IMG/VR virus record: IMGVR_UViG_3300021961_000451
Location: 1-28,875 of that record
Strand: one strand, 5' to 3'
Length of the DNA: 28,875 nt
Source of the DNA: a virus
Positions 5,765 through 16,934 of the stretch are shown in pieces (the first letter of the stretch is position 1; each line of letters begins with the position of its first letter). Under the pieces are notes generated by a model that was given only the letters and a program-made list of their open reading frames with translations, was not told the origin of the DNA and did not search any database. The position numbers were made by a program, and so were the translations under genes.

Positions 5765-6584
5765 AAAACGATTTATAGAAATACTAAAGAAGTTAATTCG
5801 ACAAGAAATCGCTGAAGTATCCACGACAGGAACAGCTGGAACTTATCCAGGTGGACCAGGACATTACTATACACCACACGCATTCTCAAGTGGTTCAGTT
5901 GGAAGTAAAAATCCAGAAGTGGGTGGATATAAAAAAGTTAATGAGGTGAAATTTGCCGTAACTATTGATATGGGTAAATTAGGTCAAGGTAAAGTTCTTG
6001 TAGATGCAGGTTCAAAGGGTATGGCAAAAACAATGGTTGCTAAAAAATTAAAACAAGGTTTAAAGGGAGTTATAAGTGTATCTCGTGTACAACCATCACT
6101 TGGTAAACAAGTAGATAGAAAGATTGAGAATGTAAACGAAGTTACTAAACAAGAAGTCAATGCATTAAGAAATCTTGTAAAGGGTATTGGTAATCTAAAA
6201 AAAGACTTTTCAAAAGCAGCTTATATTGGTGATAAAGAACTTAGAAAAAAAGATTACAATAAACATTATGAAACACTTCTGAAAGCTGAAAAAGCAATGG
6301 TAGAACTTATGCAAATTTTTAAAAACAAACAAATGTTAGGTGAAGGTCGTTATCACGAGTGGAGAAATGACGAATCACTAACACCAAGACAAAAGATTGG
6401 TCATAGTATTCGTGAAGTTCGTCATTCTTTAAGTGAGTTAGATAGTGTGGTAAAGATGGCCGTTAAATTAAAAACAGAATTAAATATGGATTCAAGAAGT
6501 TATTGGAAGAACACTCATAAAGCCCTAACTAAGATTTCAGAAAGATTAGTTAAGATGGCTAATAAAGTAGGGAACTTAAAATGA
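5745..6584 (+). CDS. Putative prohead-processed structural protein with Gly-rich linker (279 aa)
   Basis: AGGAG, seven bases before ATG 5745, supports the start. The N-terminal 25 residues are an amphipathic basic helix ending in Q-E-I-A-E-V, where I-A-E matches the gp21 [L/I]-x-E cleavage consensus (as in T4 internal-protein leaders). A Gly/Thr/Pro-rich stretch (G-T-A-G-T-Y-P-G-G-P-G-H-Y, about 27-40) follows, then a small mixed domain with the segment V-L-V-D-A-G-S-K-G, and a C-terminal helical bundle (about 125-279). I infer that it is a core or internal head protein from the leader and its place just before other leader-bearing genes. It overlaps the next start by ATGA. Confidence 0.75.
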   Translation: MSTKISKKRFIEILKKLIRQEIAEVSTTGTAGTYPGGPGHYYTPHAFSSGSVGSKNPEVGGYKKVNEVKFAVTIDMGKLGQGKVLVDAGSKGMAKTMVAKKLKQGLKGVISVSRVQPSLGKQVDRKIENVNEVTKQEVNALRNLVKGIGNLKKDFSKAAYIGDKELRKKDYNKHYETLLKAEKAMVELMQIFKNKQMLGEGRYHEWRNDESLTPRQKIGHSIREVRHSLSELDSVVKMAVKLKTELNMDSRSYWKNTHKALTKISERLVKMANKVGNLK

Positions 6585-8011
6585 AATTAAAAAATTTAAT
6601 AAACGAAAATTTATGGAATGAAAGAAAGTTTGGTGAACCATTACCAACACTAGCCGACACTACCAAAGCATACAAGTTAAGAAAAGAAGAAGATGGTAAA
6701 GAACAACATCTTGATGATAAAGAAAAAGAAAAAGCTAAAAAACTTGGTTTGGTTTGGAAAGGTAAAGGATATGGTAAAAAAGATGCTGACCATATCTCAC
6801 ATAAAAATGTTGATGGTAAATTAACAAAAGTTGATGATGGTGAAAAACAAGACCCTAAATCTAAAGGATTGAGTGGTAGTGATTTCGATAGAGAACTACC
6901 ATCAGATGGTCCAAATCCAACAAGTAAAGATAAACCTTTAGTTAAAAAAGGTGAACCAGTAAAACTTAATGATGATGCTCAAGACACAATCGATGGTATG
7001 GATTGGGATAAGTATAGTGAAAATATTCCAGTAAGTTATTTTACCAGCAAATTTAGTAATAATACAGAGGAATGGAACTCTCAAGTAAATCGTGTGTATG
7101 ATGAAATGTATGGACAAATTCCACAAGAAGATTTAGATAAACTTGAAGATGCCCTTATAAGAGATGAGGATGAGTATGATTATGATTTATCAGAAGTTCC
7201 TGAAGAAGAAATGAAAGAAAAATCAAAAATACTTAAGGATTTTCATATAAAATACTCAACATCTGGAAACAAAAAATCAGCAAGTATAGATAAAGTTCGA
7301 ACAGCTAAAGAGTTGAATGATTCAGAACAAATAAAAAAAGACCCAATGGGAACAGCCGAAAAACTGGATGACTTACTTCGAGATGTTTCAAATGAATTAG
7401 AAGATATCGAACAAGCCGATGACCAATATGCTATCGTTAATGATGAGTTTGGCTTAGAATTAAGTCGACTTCACGATGATATAGAATTTGGAGATGATGA
7501 AGAAAAAGAAGATGCTATAAAAGGTTTAAAAGATTTAACATCTGATGTAGAAAAATTTATGAATGTTAATTATAGTACACTAACAGGAATTGCAAAACCA
7601 AAAAAAGGTCAAAAGATTAGAGGGCCAGTAAGTATGGTTGGATATAGAACTGGTAGAAATAGAAGTGGTGGTATGTATGATAATGTTAATCCAAGTAATA
7701 AGTATTTAGTTGAAAGTGTTAATATATTTAACAGAGAATTTGGACAACCACTACCAACATTAAATGATGTGATGAAAGCACATCAAGGTAATATTCAAGA
7801 ATCTCGTGAAGATGTTGAAAAGGCTAAAAAAGAATTAAGAATGTTTGCAAAAGAAGAGGGTATATTAAGAAAAAGAGTATTAAAATTAGAAGGTATGATG
7901 AAAAATGACTCTGAAAACAAAGATTTAGCAAAACAAATTAAAAAATCCTACAAAGATAATGTAACTAAATTCATGAGAGAAGCTGTAGGATTGGTGAAAA
8001 GGATGAAATAA
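6581..8011 (+). CDS. Putative internal head protein with capsid-targeting-type leader; internally repeated (476 aa)
   Basis: The protein opens M-K-L-K-N-L-I-N-E-N, a short leader ending in I-N-E that matches the prohead-protease cleavage consensus. Residues 48-73 contain the module K-K-L-G-L-V-W-K-G-K-G-Y-G-K-K-D, shared with the gene at 10026. The motif F-G-E-P-L-P-T-L near the N-terminus recurs at about residue 386 as F-G-Q-P-L-P-T-L, preceded by Y-L-V-E-S (a second possible cleavage site, L-V-E). The middle is acidic and the C-terminus helical and basic. No known family is recognised. It ends in TAATG overlap with the protease gene, so the substrate and enzyme would be co-translated. Confidence 0.8.
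   Translation: MKLKNLINENLWNERKFGEPLPTLADTTKAYKLRKEEDGKEQHLDDKEKEKAKKLGLVWKGKGYGKKDADHISHKNVDGKLTKVDDGEKQDPKSKGLSGSDFDRELPSDGPNPTSKDKPLVKKGEPVKLNDDAQDTIDGMDWDKYSENIPVSYFTSKFSNNTEEWNSQVNRVYDEMYGQIPQEDLDKLEDALIRDEDEYDYDLSEVPEEEMKEKSKILKDFHIKYSTSGNKKSASIDKVRTAKELNDSEQIKKDPMGTAEKLDDLLRDVSNELEDIEQADDQYAIVNDEFGLELSRLHDDIEFGDDEEKEDAIKGLKDLTSDVEKFMNVNYSTLTGIAKPKKGQKIRGPVSMVGYRTGRNRSGGMYDNVNPSNKYLVESVNIFNREFGQPLPTLNDVMKAHQGNIQESREDVEKAKKELRMFAKEEGILRKRVLKLEGMMKNDSENKDLAKQIKKSYKDNVTKFMREAVGLVKRMK
6740..6785 (+). repeat. 46-base perfect repeat, copy A
   Basis: Identical over 46 bases to 10101-10146, inside two different genes, encoding the same L-G-L-V-W-K-G-K-G-Y-G-K-K-D module. Codons are identical, not merely the residues, so recent duplication or recombination between the genes is likely. 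Confidence 0.9.
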
Positions 8012-8631
8012 TGAAAAACTTAATTGTAGATTATATACCATTTGAAATAACACCGACTCAAATAAATGAGGCGATGAAAGAAAACAACGGAAAGTTAGTT
8101 GTTAAAGGTGTATTACAAAGAGCAGATGCAAAAAACCAAAATGGAAGAGTATATCCAATGGATATTCTAACCAGAGAAGCAAAAAATTATTCACAAAATT
8201 TTATTTCTCAAAAAAGAGCACTTGGTGAATTAGACCACCCAGATAGTTCAGTTGTTAATTTACAAAATGTATCTCACAATATTACAGAAATGCACTTTGA
8301 AGGTGATAATTTATTAGGAACAGTTGAAATCCTAACCACACCAAGTGGTAATATTTTAAGAGAACTATTTAAAAATGGTATCAAGTTAGGTATCAGTTCT
8401 CGTGGTATGGGTTCAGTAGAACAAGTTACTGAATCAGATGGCCAACAAGCATTAAAAGTAGGAGATGACTTTGAATTAATCGCTTTTGATTTTGTAAGTA
8501 ATCCTTCTACACATGGAGCGTTTATGCATCCTTTACAAGAGGGAGTAAATAAAACACAAACACAAGGTAGAACTTGTGGTGTTTATTGTAAAGCAGAAGA
8601 TTTGATTAATAAAATCATAAGAGGAGAATAA
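8011..8631 (+). CDS. 21: Prohead maturation protease (T4 gp21-like)
   Basis: This 206-residue protein is a serine protease of the T4 gp21 type, which sits in the prohead core, activates itself and cleaves scaffold, capsid and internal proteins after [L/I]-x-E. Seen here: the opening domain with Q-N-G-R-V-Y-P, the histidine motif G-E-L-D-H-P (His76), and the serine motif L-G-I-S-S-R-G (Ser129/130), in the spacing expected for the family. An I-N-E-A at residues 18-21 could be a self-processing site. T4 gp21 is 212 aa, so the length is normal. It lies in the T4 order before scaffold and gp23, though separated from them by a long block of probable substrates. Confidence 0.95.
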   Translation: MKNLIVDYIPFEITPTQINEAMKENNGKLVVKGVLQRADAKNQNGRVYPMDILTREAKNYSQNFISQKRALGELDHPDSSVVNLQNVSHNITEMHFEGDNLLGTVEILTTPSGNILRELFKNGIKLGISSRGMGSVEQVTESDGQQALKVGDDFELIAFDFVSNPSTHGAFMHPLQEGVNKTQTQGRTCGVYCKAEDLINKIIRGE

Positions 8632-8632
8632 T

Positions 8633-8911
8633 ATGGCTTTAGCTGATAGAAAACCAAACACACCATTTCAAAAAAGTGGTAATGATGAGTTAGGTGGAGA
8701 AACAGGTTTAGAAAATTTAAAACCAAAAAATCCATTTGTTAAAAGTGGTAATGATGAATTGGCTAGTGATAGTGGTTTAGAAAACTACAAATCACCATTT
8801 GTTAAAAGTGGTAATGATTCTTTAGGTGGTAATAGTGGTATAGAAAATTTTAAAATTCCAGCAGCAGGTAGAATAAATAAAGGTTGGAATGGTGATGGAC
8901 TTGCAGATTAA
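8633..8911 (+). CDS. Short tandem-repeat protein (92 aa)
   Basis: A strong ribosome site (GAGGAGAATAAT-ATG) supports the start. The protein is almost entirely three copies of a 21-23-residue repeat of the form P-F-x-K-S-G-N-D-E-L-x-x-x-x-G-L-E-N-x-K (about residues 11-33, 34-54, 55-75), followed by a Gly/Asn tail. No known family is recognised. Regular repeats with invariant S-G-N-D and G-L-E-N suggest a linear binding motif displayed in series, perhaps for a capsid or core protein. That is inferred only from its place between protease and head-protein genes. It overlaps the next gene by TAATG. Confidence 0.75.
   Translation: MALADRKPNTPFQKSGNDELGGETGLENLKPKNPFVKSGNDELASDSGLENYKSPFVKSGNDSLGGNSGIENFKIPAAGRINKGWNGDGLAD
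8663..8857 (+). repeat. Three tandem 63-69-base coding repeats
   Basis: Three in-frame copies of the P-F-x-K-S-G-N-D unit. Bases have diverged at third positions while S-G-N-D and G-(L/I)-E-N residues are kept, so selection at protein level is likely. Confidence 0.8.
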
Positions 8912-10029
8912 TGCCATCCAAATCTAAAGCACAACAAAGATTTATGGGATTGGTTCACGCTTATAATAAGGGTGATGTAAAAGGTTCCGAAGTATCTAAG
9001 ACAGTAAAGGATGTTGCTAAGGATATGAAAAAGAAAGATGTAAAAGATTTTGCATCTACAACACATAAAGGGAAACCAGAAAAAGTGAAAAAAGAAGCTA
9101 TAGATAAACTAAAAGAAATGATTCGTATGGAACTTGAGGGTTGTGGATATGTTATGTCTGCTAAAAACCCTAATTATAAATTAAAATCACCTGGTGGAAC
9201 TGGTGAAGAAGATAGAAGATTAAAAAAGGAAAATGTACTTAACGAAATGGATTACAGAGGATTCGTTAAATACATGAATGATTTCTATGGGCCTAAAGGA
9301 GTTTATCCTGATAAAAAGAAAAGAACTTTGAAGATGAAAGATATTGGGATGGCATATTCAGTATTATTAAAGAAGAAACCAGATTTTGAAATCGGATATG
9401 ATTCTACTGATAGAGAGATGTTAAGAGATATTTTAATCAAGTTAAGAAAACTTGACCCTGATTATTCACAGAAAGAATCAATAGATGAATCTAAAAAAGT
9501 AAATGAAAAACTTTCAGTTGACCCGAGAAAAGTATATGGTGGAACTGGTGCTAAACAAGGAATGAGATTAACTGCACAAAAAGGATTAAAAAAGATTTTA
9601 GATTTATCTAAAAAGAATCCTTCAAATGTATTTTTGGTTAGTGATGATAACTATACTAATTTTGGTCCATATTATGTAAAAAATGGTAAAGTTGCAAAAT
9701 ATACCGTCGCCAATCCAAACTATGATTTACAAAAAAACAAAGTAAGAAGTTTAAAAGTTCCATCAGATGTTATTTTGAAATTCACAATAAACGAATCAAT
9801 AAATGAAGGTAAGGGTGTAGAAAAAGTTTTAAAAATGGCAAATGACCATTCATTTGGAAAACTCGGTGGTAGAACCGTAGACGCTTTAAGTGCAGGTTTA
9901 TTTAAAGGAGTGTATGATAAAGCAAGTGATAAAAATAAAGAAAAAATTAACAAAATGAACGAAAAACAATTATATGTATTTATGACTAAATTGTGGAGTA
10001 AGTTCGGTAGACAGGTGAAATTAACATGA
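8911..10029 (+). CDS. Multi-domain head-region protein with DUF3008-like N-terminus (372 aa)
   Basis: Residues 1-60 (K-S-K-A-Q-Q-R-F-M-G then D-F-A-S-T-T-H-K-G-K-P-E-K-V) match the small DUF3008 family, a basic helical domain of unknown function found in bacteria and phages, usually as a free-standing protein. Several different segments follow, separated by L-N-E (about 112), I-D-E (about 191), I-N-E (about 294 and 298), all fitting the prohead-protease consensus. The last segment ends in W-S-K-F-G-R-Q. This looks like a bead-string polyprotein that the protease could cut into separate head peptides. The role is inferred; only the N-terminal match is recognised. It overlaps the next gene by ATGA. 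Confidence 0.75.
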   Translation: MPSKSKAQQRFMGLVHAYNKGDVKGSEVSKTVKDVAKDMKKKDVKDFASTTHKGKPEKVKKEAIDKLKEMIRMELEGCGYVMSAKNPNYKLKSPGGTGEEDRRLKKENVLNEMDYRGFVKYMNDFYGPKGVYPDKKKRTLKMKDIGMAYSVLLKKKPDFEIGYDSTDREMLRDILIKLRKLDPDYSQKESIDESKKVNEKLSVDPRKVYGGTGAKQGMRLTAQKGLKKILDLSKKNPSNVFLVSDDNYTNFGPYYVKNGKVAKYTVANPNYDLQKNKVRSLKVPSDVILKFTINESINEGKGVEKVLKMANDHSFGKLGGRTVDALSAGLFKGVYDKASDKNKEKINKMNEKQLYVFMTKLWSKFGRQVKLT

Positions 10030-11765
10030 TAAAATTAAAAACATTATTGATGGAAGCTGATGCTCCAAAGTTAAAAGATTCTGAAAAAGAAAAAGCCAGA
10101 AAACTTGGTTTGGTTTGGAAAGGTAAAGGATATGGTAAAAAAGATGATGACCATATTTCTTTTAAAGCCGATAAAAGTGGTAAACTTGTAAAGGTTGATA
10201 AAGATGGTGAAAAAGAAAAACCTAAAGGTACAGGATTTACTTCAAAAGATTTCGATAGAGATAATGATGGTATGGAAGATAAACCTAAATCACTTTCATC
10301 ACAAGTTTCTGATGAAAATAAAGATGAATTTATGGATGTTGTTTCTAACATAGATTCTAATTCAGGATTAGATACGATTAATGCTAGACAATTAGATAAA
10401 TCTAAGGGGGATAGTGGAACATTTTATAATAATATCACTCTTCCAGCATTAAAGCAAAAGTTTCCTGGTGGTGGAGATGAGTTTTACGAAGGTATAAGTA
10501 GTGGTGTTGATAGTGCGATAGAATCACTTGAATATATTGAAGATAAAAAACTTAAGAAACAATTAGAAAATGAACTCTATCAAATTTCCAATGATATGGA
10601 AGAAGAACTCGGTGAGGATTATGAAGCCGCAGTTGATGGAGTTGGTAAACTACCTTATAAAAAAATGTTACCTTATTTAGAGAAATTAGACAAATTTAAG
10701 AAAGAATATTTTTCTGATGTATCAGAATCTAAAAAGGAGACAAGAGAAGGTATGATAAAATTAAAAGATGTACTAAGAGAATCAAAAGTATCTTATTTAG
10801 TAGAGGCATTACAAAGTAAATTATTAAGAAAATTCACCAATAGACAAAATTTCAAATTAGATAGTGATTTCTATGGGTGGTTGGCTAAATTAGGTGTAAG
10901 AGCAAATAAAGTAACGGATGATATGATTGAAAAAACTGCAAAACTATCTGGTAAAGGTATTGTGATTGCAGTAACTGGTAAAAAAGTAAGTTTACCAGCT
11001 AAAGGAAAATCTTATTGGAGAAGTGATTTAGAAGTTGATAAAGGTGTTGTCTTGAGTGTTTTCAAAGATGGTAAGGCAGTTTGGTGGACAAAATCTTGGA
11101 GAGAATCTGAAAAGAATAGAAAAAAAGATATAAATGTTGCAGATACAAAAGGATATGGGTTCTCAACATCTGAAAATCGTACCTTTGGTTTAAATCAATT
11201 TGGATATCAAAACGCAGCATCAGTAAAGAAAATTAACGGAGTTGAATTTTACAAAATATCACTTGAGGAAAACATGCCATATATGGGTGGTAAAGAAGTT
11301 AGAAAATTAAGGTCAGATATACAAGTTGGTTCTTGGAAATGGAGAGATGATGAATCTTTCAAAAGACAAAATAAAGATAAATACGAAGACTCTATTAGGT
11401 CAATGTATGATGACCCAGAAAAAGTTAAAGCAAAAATTAAAAAAGCAAAAGATTATACTGATAAATTAATTACAGGTTTGATTGGTGGTAAACCAAATGC
11501 AGATGCTAAAAAATTACTAAAAGGTTTAGGTAATACTCGAGCACCTGAAATGCAAGCAATGGAATTGATGAGAAATATAACTGATGCAATGGATAGATTA
11601 TATGATAAGGTTACTTATTATAATAATGCAGTTCAAGATGATATTGATTATGAAAAGAGAAATCCTGAACATCCTAAATCCTATAGAAATTCACCAAAAT
11701 ATGGTAAAGAAGTTGCTGAAATAGTCAATTTAATACTTAAAAACAAATTCAGAGGATATTATTAA
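10026..11765 (+). CDS. Putative internal head polyprotein with two capsid-targeting-type leaders (579 aa)
   Basis: The protein begins M-I-K-L-K-T-L-L-M-E-A, ending in the L-M-E cleavage consensus. Residues 20-45 repeat the K-L-G-L-V-W-K-G-K-G-Y-G-K-K-D module of the gene at 6581. At residue 243 (base 10752) a second full leader, M-I-K-L-K-D-V-L-R-E-S, appears inside the reading frame, followed by an unrelated roughly 325-residue domain rich in Trp and Lys. So two leader-bearing proteins appear fused. The internal ATG has AGGAG 12 bases upstream and could also start a separate 337-residue product. No catalytic motif is recognised. Placement between protease and scaffold supports a role as packaged cargo or core protein. 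Confidence 0.78.
   Translation: MIKLKTLLMEADAPKLKDSEKEKARKLGLVWKGKGYGKKDDDHISFKADKSGKLVKVDKDGEKEKPKGTGFTSKDFDRDNDGMEDKPKSLSSQVSDENKDEFMDVVSNIDSNSGLDTINARQLDKSKGDSGTFYNNITLPALKQKFPGGGDEFYEGISSGVDSAIESLEYIEDKKLKKQLENELYQISNDMEEELGEDYEAAVDGVGKLPYKKMLPYLEKLDKFKKEYFSDVSESKKETREGMIKLKDVLRESKVSYLVEALQSKLLRKFTNRQNFKLDSDFYGWLAKLGVRANKVTDDMIEKTAKLSGKGIVIAVTGKKVSLPAKGKSYWRSDLEVDKGVVLSVFKDGKAVWWTKSWRESEKNRKKDINVADTKGYGFSTSENRTFGLNQFGYQNAASVKKINGVEFYKISLEENMPYMGGKEVRKLRSDIQVGSWKWRDDESFKRQNKDKYEDSIRSMYDDPEKVKAKIKKAKDYTDKLITGLIGGKPNADAKKLLKGLGNTRAPEMQAMELMRNITDAMDRLYDKVTYYNNAVQDDIDYEKRNPEHPKSYRNSPKYGKEVAEIVNLILKNKFRGYY
10101..10146 (+). repeat. 46-base perfect repeat, copy B
   Basis: Second copy of the sequence at 6740-6785, 3.36 kb away in the same orientation. 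Flanking bases diverge quickly on both sides. Confidence 0.9.
10735..10754 (+). promoter_or_regulatory. Possible internal ribosome site and start within the 579-aa gene
   Basis: AGGAG at 10735-10739 precedes the in-frame ATG at 10752 by 12 bases, a longer gap than ideal. The encoded peptide is a complete second leader, so a second product of 337 residues may be made. Alternatively the sequence marks a former gene boundary whose stop codon has been lost. Confidence 0.35.
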
Positions 11766-12112
11766 TGATTAAGTTAAAAGATTTACTAAAAGAAGAAGAG
11801 TGTCATTGTGGGGATTCATGTTGTTCCACTAAAGAATCAGTAAATGAAGAGGTGATACAAGAAATGAGAGTATCTGCTGATTTAGGTAAAATTGATAAAA
11901 TGTATGGTGGTGATGGGCCAAGGAGTACAACAAGTAAAACTCCAGTTACACCAAAGGCATATAATATGTTGAGTAAGGATGTAAAAGTTTTGAAAATGGC
12001 AGTAAAACAATTAGAGAATGCTGTAAGAAAACAAAACGATGTAGAACTAAAAGATGATATCGTATACTTAGTATTAAAAGCACATGAAGCATTGGAGGAT
12101 ATGCAAAAATGA
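11765..12112 (+). CDS. Small leader-bearing head protein with Cys cluster (115 aa)
   Basis: It opens M-I-K-L-K-D-L-L-K-E-E, the shared leader ending in L-K-E. Directly after it come E-C-H-C-G-D-S-C-C-S (residues 12-21), four cysteines and a histidine, a likely metal-binding or redox patch that would be newly exposed at the N-terminus after cleavage. Further possible sites are V-N-E (about 29) and I-Q-E (about 33). The rest is a helical region (about 60-115). It is translationally coupled at both ends (TAATG, ATGA). Family not recognised; cargo or core role inferred from the leader. Confidence 0.78.
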   Translation: MIKLKDLLKEEECHCGDSCCSTKESVNEEVIQEMRVSADLGKIDKMYGGDGPRSTTSKTPVTPKAYNMLSKDVKVLKMAVKQLENAVRKQNDVELKDDIVYLVLKAHEALEDMQK

Positions 12113-12402
12113 TTAAATTAAAAAATATACTTCAAGAGAAAAAAGATTTAGATAATAAACAAATTGATTATCTTGAAAAATTAACTGATAGAAATGAACA
12201 TACTTTAGCTAGAAAACATCTTGCTAAGTTAATTGGTAATAAAAAGTTAGTACAGATGTATGAACATATTTTTGAATTACACTTATACTTCAGAGATATT
12301 AATGATTTAAAATCAGCTCGTGAAAGATTAGATAAAGAATTATTTAGATTAGCTGATAGAAAGTTTGGTAATTTTAAAGATGTATATAATAGGGGGTTCT
12401 AA
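12109..12402 (+). CDS. Small leader-bearing head protein (97 aa)
   Basis: GGAGG upstream within the preceding gene supports ATG 12109. The N-terminus M-I-K-L-K-N-I-L-Q-E-K is the shared leader with an L-Q-E cut site. The rest, about 85 residues, is a charged helical domain with several Lys-Leu and Arg-Leu pairs. I recognise no family. Its position in the leader-bearing block is the only functional clue; it would be a T4 IP-like internal protein by analogy. It overlaps both neighbours by a few bases. Confidence 0.75.
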   Translation: MIKLKNILQEKKDLDNKQIDYLEKLTDRNEHTLARKHLAKLIGNKKLVQMYEHIFELHLYFRDINDLKSARERLDKELFRLADRKFGNFKDVYNRGF

Positions 12403-13001
12403 TGAGTAGTATGACACATAAAATGTGGAATCAATGGAAAGATTTTAGATTAAATGAGGGAGACCATGAAGGTGATATGGCCAAATCACAATTAGAAAGA
12501 TGTATGAAACTTTCTAAAATGATTTACCAAAAAATTGAAAATGGTGATTCTGATGGAGATGGTAAAGTTCAATTACCAGCTTGGTTACAATCAGAATTGA
12601 CTATTGCATTAGAAAGTTTACAAGGTGTTCACACTTATCTTGATGGTAAAGATGGTTTAAAAGAAGTAGATAGTGGTGGAACATATGTACCAGGTTCATT
12701 AAAGGGTAAAGGAGTGAATAGTTTTCCAATGTTGAAATATTCATCACCAGAGGCCAAACAATTTGTTGAACAAGATATAAAACAAATGGGTAAGTTTTTT
12801 AATAAAGCATCAGCACAAACTATCAAAGTAATGATGGATGGTGTAAAAAATAATAAGTATGATGCTATGGATTTAATTCGTGGTATTAAAACAGGTCCAA
12901 CAGGAGACACAAGTGTAGGTGTTAGAGATATGATTGGTGTGTTATGGACAAAAGTAGATAAAAGATTTCGTAGTTATTTGCGTGGTAAAAAACGAAGATA
13001 A
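12402..13001 (+). CDS. Putative virion/core protein with divergent leader (199 aa)
   Basis: The start follows AGGGGG six bases upstream. The N-terminus is an aromatic amphipathic segment M-W-N-Q-W-K-D-F-R-L-N-E-G, whose L-N-E (17-19) fits the prohead-protease consensus; it resembles the leader class but lacks the K-L-K core. Residues about 48-60 contain D-S-D-G-D-G-K-V, an EF-hand-like acidic loop, leading into L-P-A-W-L-Q-S-E-L-T, a motif I associate with virion proteins of marine T4-like phages from memory. The C-terminus is strongly basic (R-G-K-K-R-R), suggesting contact with DNA or core. Function is not known. Confidence 0.75.
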   Translation: MSSMTHKMWNQWKDFRLNEGDHEGDMAKSQLERCMKLSKMIYQKIENGDSDGDGKVQLPAWLQSELTIALESLQGVHTYLDGKDGLKEVDSGGTYVPGSLKGKGVNSFPMLKYSSPEAKQFVEQDIKQMGKFFNKASAQTIKVMMDGVKNNKYDAMDLIRGIKTGPTGDTSVGVRDMIGVLWTKVDKRFRSYLRGKKRR

Positions 13002-13003
13002 TG

Positions 13004-13013
13004 ATATTTATTA
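13004..13013 (+). promoter_or_regulatory. Late-promoter-like element, copy 3 (ATATTTATTA)
   Basis: Occupies the short gap after the 199-aa gene, 19 bases before ATG 13033. An AAGGAG ribosome site lies between the element and the start. Confidence 0.4.
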
Positions 13014-13032
13014 GAGTATAAGGAGATACAAA

Positions 13033-13704
13033 ATGGCAAAATTAAAAGATTTAATAAAAGAAAACTTTTCAGTAGTGGGTGGAGTTGTATCTACACCATC
13101 ATTGAATCGTGGTACTTCATTAACAAGTATTGTTGAAGATATGTACGGAAAAAAAGAAGAAAAAGTTAGTGCACAACAAATTCAACAATCAATAAGAGAA
13201 TTTACAAGTTTCAGTAAAGTATTACAGAAAGAAGAAAATCTTAAACAGATTGCAGAAAAATTATCAGTAATTGCAAATAACGCAAAATCTTACACTTTAA
13301 GTGAAACAGAAGATTGGTTTGATAAAGTTACTGTAAATCGTAATATGAAAGAATTAACAAACTTATCAAAATCATTTGGTAAAATTGCACAAGAATCACA
13401 ACAATTACAACAAAGATTAGGTGGTTTATATGAAGATATGGGTCATGTTCTTGGTAGATATTTTGAAATTGAAGGTGATGCAGATAAATCTGATTTAGTT
13501 AAAATCGGTTTAGAAAATCCTGATGAAGATGATTTACCAAAAGGTAGTGAACTTGAAGAAGGTGATTACGAAGAATTCTTCCAATCCGCATTAAAGAAGT
13601 TTGGAGTTAAATCACCAGATGAATTAGGTGATGATGAAAAGAAAAAGAAGTTCTTCAATTATGTAGATAAAAACTACAAAGCAAAAGCAGAAGCTAAAAT
13701 TTAA
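13033..13704 (+). CDS. Leader-bearing prohead core candidate (223 aa)
   Basis: Strong ribosome site (AAGGAG). The N-terminus M-A-K-L-K-D-L-I-K-E-N is the shared leader with I-K-E. Central helical region (about 50-150) is Gln/Leu-rich and likely coiled coil; the last third is very acidic (N-P-D-E-D-D, G-D-D-E) before a short basic tail. Acidic, helical and protease-site-bearing proteins are typical of T4 core components such as gp67/gp68 and IPs, but I cannot match it to one of them. It sits directly upstream of the bS21 gene, 17 bases away. Confidence 0.78.
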   Translation: MAKLKDLIKENFSVVGGVVSTPSLNRGTSLTSIVEDMYGKKEEKVSAQQIQQSIREFTSFSKVLQKEENLKQIAEKLSVIANNAKSYTLSETEDWFDKVTVNRNMKELTNLSKSFGKIAQESQQLQQRLGGLYEDMGHVLGRYFEIEGDADKSDLVKIGLENPDEDDLPKGSELEEGDYEEFFQSALKKFGVKSPDELGDDEKKKKFFNYVDKNYKAKAEAKI

Positions 13705-13721: not shown

Positions 13722-13928
13722 TTGATTAAAGTAGAAGTCCGAAAAGGACAATCTGTAGAAAAGGCTATATCAATCTTTAAACGAAAAGTAAAAGATAGTG
13801 GTATATTAATGGAGTATCGTGATAGACAATTTTACGAAAAACCATCAGCAATCAAACGAGAAAAGAAAAATAAAGCCATTTTACGAAACAAATATAAAGT
13901 TCTAAAAGAAAAAGAACAAGATAATTAA
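13722..13928 (+). CDS. rpsU: Phage-encoded ribosomal protein bS21
   Basis: This 68-residue basic protein closely follows the bS21 pattern: M-I-K-V-E-V-R-K-G-Q-S-V-E-K-A-I, then F-K-R-K-V, G-I-L-M-E and R-Q-F-Y-E-K-P-S, followed by a Lys/Arg-rich helix. bS21 binds the small ribosomal subunit next to the 3' end of 16S rRNA and affects initiation. The start is TTG, supported by AGAGG at 13712-13716 five bases upstream; no ATG is available before residue 29. Marine phages carrying bS21 are known; the usual idea is that the phage protein enters host ribosomes and favours phage messages. Here it is embedded among head genes, just before a terminator, so it would be made late, which is notable. Confidence 0.93.
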   Translation: MIKVEVRKGQSVEKAISIFKRKVKDSGILMEYRDRQFYEKPSAIKREKKNKAILRNKYKVLKEKEQDN

Positions 13929-14088: not shown

Positions 14089-15270
14089 ATGGATGATTTA
14101 CTAAAAGAAGCCATTGCAGATGCCAAAGCAGTTCGTGAAACAGCTTTAGCTAATGCAAAAATGGCACTTGAAGAAGCATTTACACCTAAATTGAAATCAA
14201 TGTTAGCACAAAAAATCCAACAAGAAATTGAAGATGAAGGCGACGAAGATAAAGTTGACGAAATCGAAGATGAAAATATGGAAGATGAAGAAGACGGAGT
14301 GTCTGATTCAGAAGAAGATGCTATCGATTCTGCTGTAGATTCTCACGAAGATGACATGCATAAAGAAATCGAGGATGAAGAAGAAGATAAAGTATCTGAA
14401 ATCGAAGATGAAGATATGGAAGACGAAGATTCACACGAAGACGAAATTGCATACGAAATTGAAGATGAGGATGAGGACAAAATTGGTGAAACATCACATG
14501 AAGATGAAGATGATGAACCAATGGAAGACCTTGACCTTGAATCTATTTTAGCTGAATTAGAAGATGAAGTCGAAGGCGATGAAGTTGAAGAAACATATGG
14601 CGATGAAGACGAAGATGATAAGAAAGTTGATGAAAACGATGTATCATCAGAAGTTGGAAAAGCTGATAACAAAGTAAACGACAAAGCTAATGATTCATCA
14701 GAAACAGGAGCACAAGGACCAGAAGGTGAAGGTAAAGACGAACCAGCTGGAAATGAACTTGATGACCACACAGTGGTTAAAGAGGGTGAAGAATCTGATG
14801 ATGATAAAGATGACGTTGATGAAGATATCGATTTAGAAGAAGTATTAAAAGCATTATCTGAAGAAGAAGATGATGATGAAAAAGATACTAAAGATGAAAT
14901 GATTAAACTTCAAGGTGAAATTAAAGAGCACAGAGATGTTGTAAAATATCTTCGTGAAAAATTAAACGAAGTTAATTTATTGAATGCTAAACTCTTATTC
15001 TCAAACAAACTATTTAGAGCGTTTGGACTAAGTAACGAACAAAAATTAAAAGTTGTTGAAACTTTTGATAGAACTAAAAACCTAAGAGAAATTAAATTAG
15101 TTTACTCTACACTTGCTGAATCTTTTCAGGGTGTTAATGTAAAACCAATTAAAGAATCTAAAGGTTCAAGTTCAAAACCAGTTGCTAGTACAAAACCTGC
15201 TAATGAAAAAGTTTTGACTGAGGGTAATGAATTACAAGCTAGATTCAAGAAATTAGCTAACATACTATAA
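14089..15270 (+). CDS. 22: Prohead core scaffold protein (T4 gp22-like), extended acidic
   Basis: The scaffold fills the prohead core around which gp23 assembles and is destroyed by gp21. It starts M-D-D-L-L-K-E-A (L-K-E cut site), followed by an Ala-rich helix. The C-terminal 100 residues carry the conserved gp22-type block (L-L-N-A-K-L-L-F-S-N-K-L-F-R-A-F and F-D-R-T-K-N-L-R-E-I-K-L-V-Y-S-T-L-A-E-S). Residues 46-270 are an extreme Asp/Glu-rich region partly built of repeats. T4 gp22 is 269 aa, this one 393, and the acidic insert accounts for the excess. AGGAG precedes the start; gp23 follows 14 bases later. Confidence 0.92.
   Translation: MDDLLKEAIADAKAVRETALANAKMALEEAFTPKLKSMLAQKIQQEIEDEGDEDKVDEIEDENMEDEEDGVSDSEEDAIDSAVDSHEDDMHKEIEDEEEDKVSEIEDEDMEDEDSHEDEIAYEIEDEDEDKIGETSHEDEDDEPMEDLDLESILAELEDEVEGDEVEETYGDEDEDDKKVDENDVSSEVGKADNKVNDKANDSSETGAQGPEGEGKDEPAGNELDDHTVVKEGEESDDDKDDVDEDIDLEEVLKALSEEEDDDEKDTKDEMIKLQGEIKEHRDVVKYLREKLNEVNLLNAKLLFSNKLFRAFGLSNEQKLKVVETFDRTKNLREIKLVYSTLAESFQGVNVKPIKESKGSSSKPVASTKPANEKVLTEGNELQARFKKLANIL
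14224..14529 (+). repeat. Degenerate acidic repeats within the scaffold gene
   Basis: Three diverged units beginning E-I-E-D-E-(x)-D-K-(V/I) at residues about 46, 93 and 123; the first two continue with E-I-E-D-E-(N/D)-M-E-D-E. Repeat expansion probably lengthened the scaffold's acidic region. Confidence 0.6.
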
Positions 15271-15284
15271 TTAGGAGACTAAAA

Positions 15285-16934
15285 ATGAGTAAATTTAAAT
15301 CAGTAGAATCTTTGATGGATGGATATAATCCACAAAGACAACTATTAGAACAAACTCGTAAGTTAGTCAAGAAATGGGAACCAACAGGCCTTTTAGAAGG
15401 AATGGACAAAGAACATGAAGTAAACGGAATGGCTGTACTTCTTGAAAATCAGGCTCGTCAATTAATTGATGAGGCTTCAAGAACAGGTACATCTGCAAAC
15501 TCAGAAGAGTGGTCAGGTGTTGCACTTCCATTAGTTCGTAGAATCTTTGGTGAGTTGGCTGCACAGGAATTTGTTTCTGTTCAACCAATGAACTTACCTT
15601 CAGGTCTTATTTTCTATCTTGACTTCAAATACGGAACTGCTCAAACTTCACTTCAAACCGAAGATTCAGATGTATATGGTAATACATCAGGTTCTGGTGA
15701 CGCAAGTGGTGGTTTATACGGAGCAGGTAAATTTGGATACTCTATCAATGACGTTTCTGTTTCAAGTATGGCATTAGCAGCTGCTACAAGTGCTACAGAA
15801 TTCACAACAGGTTCTGTATCTTGGGAAGATGTTAATTTCGAACCAGACCTATCTGCATCAGCAGCATTAGGTTCAGAAGCAGACAATGGTCTTATGAAAA
15901 TCACTGTTTCAAACGCAGCAATAGCTAACTTTGATACAGATGGTGTTAGAGCATTCACAGTATCAGGTAGTGGATTTGATGCTTTCTATCCAGCACATAC
16001 ATCTATAAATGCAGCTAAAACTGCAGTAACATTCTTCGTATTGAAGAATACAGCAGGTGTACCAAGTGGAGTTAAAGTACAATATCACAAAACTGCAGCT
16101 AACAATTACACTCGTGGTGATTTTGAAGCAACTGCAGCACAAGTTGATGCAAACCCTGAAACTGATATCGATATCCCAGAATTAGATATCGCACTAAAGA
16201 GTATTCCGATAATCGCGAAAACTCGTAAGTTAAAAGCAGTCTGGACTCCAGAACTTGCTCAAGACTTAAACGCATACCACTCAGTTGACGCTGAAGCTGA
16301 ATTAACTGCATTACTATCTGAGTACATCTCAATGGAAATCGATTTAGAAATCCTTGATATGTTGTACGCAGGTGCTACTGCTAAAACAGAAAAATGGTCA
16401 GCAAGAGTTGGATATGAATATGATTCAGCAACTAACTTGTTCGCACAGTCAAGTGGTGAATCAAATGCATACACAAAAGGTACTTGGTTCCAAACTCTTG
16501 GAAACAAGATACAATCAGTATCTAACGCAATACACCAGAAAACTTTAAGAGGTGGAGCTAACTTCTTGGTCGTAAGTCCAGAAACAGCAACTATCATCGA
16601 GAGTATTCCTGGATATGCAGCAGACACAGATGGTGATTCAACTAACAACTCATTCGCAATGGGTGTACAAAAAGTAGGTGCTCTTAACAACAGATTTACT
16701 GTTTACAAGAACCCTTACGCATTGGATAACGTAATCTTAGCAGGTTTCAGAGGAAGTAACTTCCTTGAAACAGGTGCGGTTTATGCTCCATATGTACCGT
16801 TAATCATGACACCATTAGTATACGACCCTAAGAACTTCACTCCAAGAAAAGGTGTAATGACACGTTACGCTAAGAAAATGGTTAGAAGTGAATTCTATGG
16901 TAAAGTTATCGTAGCTGATGTAAACTATGTGTAA
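15285..16934 (+). CDS. 23: Major capsid protein (T4 gp23-like)
   Basis: This 549-residue protein forms the hexamers of the head shell, with an HK97-type fold in the family. The N-terminal region (L-L-E-Q-T-R-K-L-V-K-K-W-E-P-T-G-L-L) and the block W-S-G-V-A-L-P-L-V-R-R-I-F are characteristic of gp23. A cleavage site is visible at L-I-D-E|A-S-R-T-G (E63/A64), close to the position used in T4 gp23 (E65/A66). The C-terminal end F-T-P-R-K-G-V-M-T-R-Y-A-K-K-M is also typical. T4 gp23 is 521 aa. Strong AGGAG site; no separate vertex protein (gp24) is seen here, so gp23 or a gene elsewhere must form the vertices. Confidence 0.97.
   Translation: MSKFKSVESLMDGYNPQRQLLEQTRKLVKKWEPTGLLEGMDKEHEVNGMAVLLENQARQLIDEASRTGTSANSEEWSGVALPLVRRIFGELAAQEFVSVQPMNLPSGLIFYLDFKYGTAQTSLQTEDSDVYGNTSGSGDASGGLYGAGKFGYSINDVSVSSMALAAATSATEFTTGSVSWEDVNFEPDLSASAALGSEADNGLMKITVSNAAIANFDTDGVRAFTVSGSGFDAFYPAHTSINAAKTAVTFFVLKNTAGVPSGVKVQYHKTAANNYTRGDFEATAAQVDANPETDIDIPELDIALKSIPIIAKTRKLKAVWTPELAQDLNAYHSVDAEAELTALLSEYISMEIDLEILDMLYAGATAKTEKWSARVGYEYDSATNLFAQSSGESNAYTKGTWFQTLGNKIQSVSNAIHQKTLRGGANFLVVSPETATIIESIPGYAADTDGDSTNNSFAMGVQKVGALNNRFTVYKNPYALDNVILAGFRGSNFLETGAVYAPYVPLIMTPLVYDPKNFTPRKGVMTRYAKKMVRSEFYGKVIVADVNYV

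Follow-up and report, generated by a model that had tools for sequence, protein, structure and literature searches.

T-even internal proteins (IPs) form a diverse set united solely by a capsid-targeting sequence (CTS) (PMC3012670). In phage T4, the first ten residues of the IPIII CTS suffice for head targeting, with residues 4 and 7 serving targeting and residues 8 and 10 serving processing (PMC9026906), and gp21 removes the first ten residues of gp24 to yield gp24* (PMC9958956). The T4 IPs travel into the host with the injected DNA. Among them, IPI blocks a restriction system of the host, and one E. coli strain can be infected only with IPIII, which probably counteracts an uncharacterized defence there (PMC3012670, PMC9391042). 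It has been suggested before that the CTS serves across T4 to load assorted proteins (PMC9026906). Here we analyze a 28,875-base fragment of an uncultured marine T4-like bacterial virus (IMG/VR record IMGVR_UViG_3300021961_000451; the whole stretch is hereafter called the window), in which a leader peptide with a Lys-Leu-Lys (KLK) core precedes several different proteins encoded around the gene for the gp21 prohead protease. Since T4 IPs evolve very fast, homology of their bodies finds few relatives, and a searchable conserved leader marking packaged proteins would make it possible to predict which proteins uncultured marine phages package.

Six near-identical leaders occur in the window where the preliminary description had placed them, five at the starts of open reading frames (ORFs) and one, at 10752, in frame inside ORF 10026-11765 (Table 1). 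Each of these peptides of about ten residues ends in [L/I]-x-E, as had also been described. The pattern M-x-K-L-K-x-hyd-hyd-x-E (hyd, hydrophobic residue) has five matches in the window versus 0.01 expected from dinucleotide shuffles. All six leaders sit between the portal gene gp20 and the probable scaffold gene, flanking gp21, and the same phage carries an S77 protease alongside them. The claim that the bodies that follow are unrelated to one another holds only in part: ORFs 6581 and 10026 have in common a 25-residue module, KEKAxKLGLVWKGKGYGKKDxDHIS, downstream of the leader.

We examined 75 distinct bodies picked solely for an M(x)KLK start. Residue 10 was Glu in 66 of these 75, and residues 7 and 8 were hydrophobic in 73 each. 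Glu frequency was at most 15% at nearly all other positions, with the residue right after Glu10 being Glu in 14/75, and conservation of the leader stops at Glu10. The conserved positions 4, 7, 8 and 10 are those that constrain targeting and processing in T4; one conservation profile had all four in its search pattern, and the M(x)KLK set tests 7, 8 and 10 without that bias.

The likeness to T4 extends to sequence. The first ten residues of T4 gp24 are MAKINELLRE, cut before S, and a generalized CTS pattern combined with a ribosome-binding site, applied over 147 of the 169 kb of T4, picked only gp24, IPII, IPIII and gp61.1. Three of these four proteins are known gp21 substrates. The 54-residue gp61.1 (NC_000866, complement, start 19130; L220) begins with the CTS-like MKTFKEFIKE, and its packaging would accordingly be predicted.

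We examined genomic location in 80 loci recruited by gp21 alone, together with the window. Between gp20 and gp22/gp23, 96 of 570 ORFs carried the leader, compared with 0 of 420 elsewhere in the same loci, and the leader was present in 27 of the 30 loci having at least 2.5 kb beyond gp21. The reported placement of leaders around gp21 holds in the window and in gp21-recruited loci, but relatives also carry the leader outside the head module.

A search of related contigs, proposed in the preliminary description, was carried out with a degenerate DNA pattern of the leader and with a scrambled pattern as control. At least 120 viral contig stretches contained the leader pattern, with 140 of the 153 matches listed lying at ORF starts. 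Across the entire collection the scrambled pattern was found in 13 stretches, never at an ORF start. The 280 leader ORFs fell into 106 body families (at least 106 overall), placing one conserved leader ahead of highly diverse proteins. Most of these families have no known domain; single cases matched the Pfam families Nudix, RNase_T exonuclease, HD, Zeta toxin (kinase-like), Mom, RimK (ATP-grasp), M23 and lysozyme.

Homologues that keep a body and lack its KLK leader, an outcome that had been named as counting against leader processing, do exist. Yet in 170 of 196 of them the junction has a different [LIMVF]xE ending, compared with 15-27% at control offsets. ORF 12402 of the window is one such body swap, with a WKDFRLNE leader here and a KLK leader in three relatives (Table 1). 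The internal leader at 10752, besides being in frame, can now be described as the start of a separate gene in relatives: in L021, L059 and L062 the C-terminal body of ORF 10026 is encoded by a gene of its own with a leader, in L004, L016, L027, L042 and L043 by a gene of its own whose leader is slightly changed (e.g. MIKLTDIIKE), and in the window, L002 and L022 it is fused. In L002 and L022 the internal leader peptide is kept though its ATG has turned to ATA, consistent with a role as a processing site within the protein.

Together, these observations suggest, with a probability of roughly 0.8, that the leader is a capsid-targeting propeptide specific to this lineage, that gp21 cleaves it behind Glu10, and that the proteins bearing it are a modular, packaged set. 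The protease-processed, head-targeted protein set proposed in the preliminary description draws support from the location counts, from the conservation of Glu10 and from the match to the T4 CTS. We infer core binding, cleavage, packaging and ejection as follows. The leader would bind the scaffolding core via hydrophobic residues 4 and 7 during prohead assembly, bringing the protein into the prohead, and gp21 would then cleave after [LI]-x-Glu10, freeing the mature protein within the head. At least five KLK-leader proteins of this kind would be encoded in the window, plus one whose leader is of another class. The product of ORF 10026, with its two leaders, is probably cut into two. Some products (the 13033 family) would be core or morphogenesis proteins, and others are probably variable cargo ejected with the DNA. 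Candidate gp21 sites are also predicted in other likely substrates, LIDE/A in gp23, where T4 gp23 predicts it, and ALEE/A in gp22.

The leader has a short amphipathic pattern, as would suit an uncut tag that docks to the prohead core or shell, with the Glu forming part of a binding helix, and conservation by itself cannot show cleavage. We consider such a tag unlikely, since conservation ends at Glu10, at least four dissimilar leader classes have little in common but [LIM]-x-E before the same downstream element, and in T4 an equivalent peptide is known to be cut off. The resemblance among leaders might instead be an artefact of a nucleotide-level translation-initiation signal or of recent gene duplication. 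Codons had been said to differ; within the window they hardly do, since every one of the six sites encodes K-L-K as AA[AG]-TTA-AAA, and a duplicated module is present in ORFs 6581 and 10026. Across 102 families, however, all six Leu codons are in use at residue 4, Lys3 is AAA:AAG 72:27 versus 75:25 for body Lys, and Glu10 is GAA:GAG 81:21 versus 80:20 for body Glu. Because leader codons follow this ordinary synonymous usage, the peptide is the conserved entity, as had been proposed, and a nucleotide-level signal is rejected as the cause. With bodies forming 106 families, and with the peptide retained internally where the start codon is gone, an artefactual origin is extremely improbable.

Several observations do weigh against packaging by way of gp21. 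Some leader genes in relatives are located at a distance from the head module, and a few bodies, with matches to lysozyme, M23 peptidase or tape-measure families, resemble tail or wall-degrading proteins and could belong to the tail instead of the head; both would suit a tag for another structure or compartment (tail, membrane, replication site), the head link being merely one of genome position. In addition, an S77 protease was detected in just 28 of 71 leader-bearing contigs, most of them fragments, versus 1 of 13 controls (Fisher p = 0.03), and one 126 kb leader contig is without it. A few cellular proteins also begin with the leader pattern, and a lone match is thus no proof; in cellular genomes 32 of the 119 matches listed were at ORF starts, a figure from which no rate can be derived, versus the 140/153 of viral contigs. 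The T4 IP and alt genes are likewise distant from the head module. Given the complete lack of leaders outside the gp20-gp22/gp23 interval in gp21-recruited loci and the position-by-position match to the T4 CTS and gp24 propeptide, a tag for another compartment appears very unlikely, and we favor the capsid-targeting propeptide.

The leader findings point to a second uncharacterized element, RKFGxPLPTL. In its longer form, W-D-R-[KE]-F-G-[EDQ]-P-L-P-T-L-x-[DS]-[VT]-M-K-x-H, it lies immediately behind predicted cuts in many unrelated proteins (also in L239-L350). An independent scan for RKFGxPLPTL gave 98 distinct contexts, with [LIM]xE mostly 4-8 residues upstream; the leader types ahead of it include KLK, DKYLxE (a class of N-terminal leader in relatives) and SYKKIAKSMLxE. 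The element matched no named family with the tools used. Among 50,697 cultured phage records, no meaningful match was found to the leader plus second element, and the C-terminal body of ORF 10026 was absent. No cultured phage with KLK leaders turned up in the collections searched.

These patterns raise the possibility, to which we give somewhat less than even odds, that a large group of uncultured T4-like phages load a fast-changing packaged arsenal by means of interchangeable, disposable tags of 10-20 residues, sometimes in the form of polyproteins that are cut at internal tags, with many of the proteins retaining the second element (W-D-R-K-F-G-x-P-L-P-T-L-x-D-V-M-K-x-H) as a docking or ejection signal. 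The tag types concerned are KLK, DKYLxE, SYKKIAKSMLxE and WKDFRLxE. If this is true, candidates for packaged effectors in uncultured phages could be listed simply by searching for the tags. As over 100 further protein families of related viruses start with the same tag, it could predict which viral proteins travel in the particle.

Table 1. Leaders, associated elements and head genes in the window.
Feature	Position	Strand	Basis or remark
Leader MKLKNLINE (9-residue form) of ORF 6581-8011	6581..6607	+	One residue shorter than pattern
Second conserved element, copy 1, WNERKFGEPLPTLADTTKAY, right after predicted cut	6614..6673	+	Sequence comparison
Module KEKAKKLGLVWKGKGYGKKDADHIS common to ORFs 6581 and 10026	6725..6799	+	Sequence comparison
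Internal leader-like NKYLVE, then second-element copy 2, NREFGQPLPTLNDVMKAH	7697..7783	+	Sequence comparison
gp21 prohead protease (Peptidase S77), predicted leader cutter	8011..8631	+	Pfam PF03420 1.2e-26, PHROG 207 7.9e-54
Leader MIKLKTLLME of ORF 10026-11765	10026..10055	+	Pattern match
Module KEKARKLGLVWKGKGYGKKDDDHIS in ORF 10026, common to ORF 6581	10086..10160	+	Sequence comparison
Internal leader MIKLKDVLRE at gene-fusion junction	10752..10781	+	In frame inside ORF 10026-11765
Leader MIKLKDLLKE of ORF 11765-12112, Cys-rich module next	11765..11794	+	Pattern match
Leader MIKLKNILQE of ORF 12109-12402	12109..12138	+	Pattern match
Other leader class, ending WKDFRLNE, on ORF 12402-13001	12402..12458	+	Body has KLK leader in L004, L016, L157
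Leader MAKLKDLIKE of ORF 13033-13704, conserved core-like protein upstream of gp22	13033..13062	+	Pattern match
Probable gp22-type scaffold, candidate site ALEE-AFTP (cut after second E)	14089..15270	+	Position, composition (acidic)
gp23 major capsid protein	15285..16934	+	Position, resemblance to annotated gp23 of L081, L082
gp23 candidate gp21 site LIDE/A, residue 63	LIDE codons 15462-15473	+	Analogy with T4 gp23

The head genes are all on the + strand, with terminase gp17 at 1414 and portal gp20 at 2997; gp17, gp20, gp22 and gp23 were named from gene order and resemblance to annotated relatives. The probable scaffold gene, which has no Pfam or PHROG match, is placed by an S21-like gene on one side and gp23 on the other. 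The former (13722-13928), flanked by the 13033 family and the scaffold gene, encodes a small ribosomal protein S21-like product and is kept in relatives; its counterpart in Microcystis phage Mel-JY01 (L081 11149-11376) carries the annotation RpsU. Between gp21 and the cargo genes, as in most relatives inspected, lies a gene for a leaderless DUF3008 protein (8911-10029), whose interior holds KVNE followed by a domain that bears a KLK leader in L136. The leader class ending W-x-x-F-R-L-x-E is found on the gene adjoining the 13033 family in most relatives (L017, L044, L059 and L062, besides the window). A Cys-rich module, CxCGDSCCSTKE, stands right behind the leaders of otherwise different proteins, in ORF 11765-12112 and in L004, L006, L016, L022 and L059.

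The bodies in the window gave no Pfam match above cut-off and no informative PHROG match. For several leader bodies an ADP-ribosyltransferase reading was tried and rejected: they have only YRG or S-x-S-T-like motifs, no Pfam match, and an hhalign probability of at most 0.7% against Alt, ModA and ModB. AlphaFold2 models of an ADP-ribosyltransferase-like leader family (predicted local distance difference test score (pLDDT) 57, predicted template modelling score (pTM) 0.57) and of the C-terminal body of ORF 10026 (pLDDT 65, pTM 0.42) gave no Foldseek match with E <1.

Some leader proteins in relatives show further regularities. On the 73 kb contig G018 (L230 6662-10843), four paralogues that have both a leader and a YRG motif stand in tandem, and a P-loop kinase-like protein that also has a leader comes after them; similar YRG-motif proteins are present in Agrobacterium phage Atu_ph07 (L224). 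Zeta-toxin-like kinases whose bodies start G[VL]xDPxIFKA stand behind x-E leaders in seven loci (L093, L125, L129, L144, L166, L222, L223), and those of the cultured phages HTVC008M (MIPFILKE) and Melnitz (MKTFAELQE) have short leader variants. Two neighbouring proteins in L110 (12435-13853) have a longer N-terminus in common, in which MIKLKEILQE leads into a T4-like NFKEFVNE segment in one protein and into a related NFKELLLM segment in the other.

As far as the literature was searched, the KLK leader class at large scale in uncultured marine phages is new, as are several interchangeable leader classes, fused precursors with internal leaders and the post-cut second element; on capsid-targeting sequences in cyanophages we found nothing beyond one T4 review. 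No homology of the window bodies to T4 IPI, IPII, IPIII or Alt was detected with Pfam or PHROG. The leaders here and the CTS of T4 IPI-IPIII are alike in being N-terminal and ten residues long (MKTYQEFIAE in IPII and IPIII), in their [LI]xE end, in the constraint on residues 4, 7, 8 and 10, and in combining one leader with highly diverse bodies (PMC9026906, PMC3012670). They differ in that the T4 IPs have a KTYQEF-type leader and scattered genes, whereas the leaders here are KLK-type and clustered around gp21, on proteins whose packaging is predicted. The closest T4 parallel is not Alt, one of the proteins with which the comparison was first drawn, but the ten-residue gp24 propeptide, MAKINELLRE, compared with MAKLKDLIKE (13033) and MIKLKDLLKE. 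Yet gp24 is a shell vertex protein, while here such a propeptide is found on many different small proteins, and no gp24 homologue was identified. In SPN3US-type giant phages a prohead protease likewise trims N-terminal propeptides of packaged proteins (PMC10052503), but with an A-x-E cleavage motif and no uniform ten-residue leader. Finally, the polyvalent or injected effectors of Iyer et al. (2017) are also diverse proteins predicted to be capsid-carried and injected (PMC5512222); they were found via homology of body domains, whereas here the leader is the handle, reaching bodies that have no known domain.

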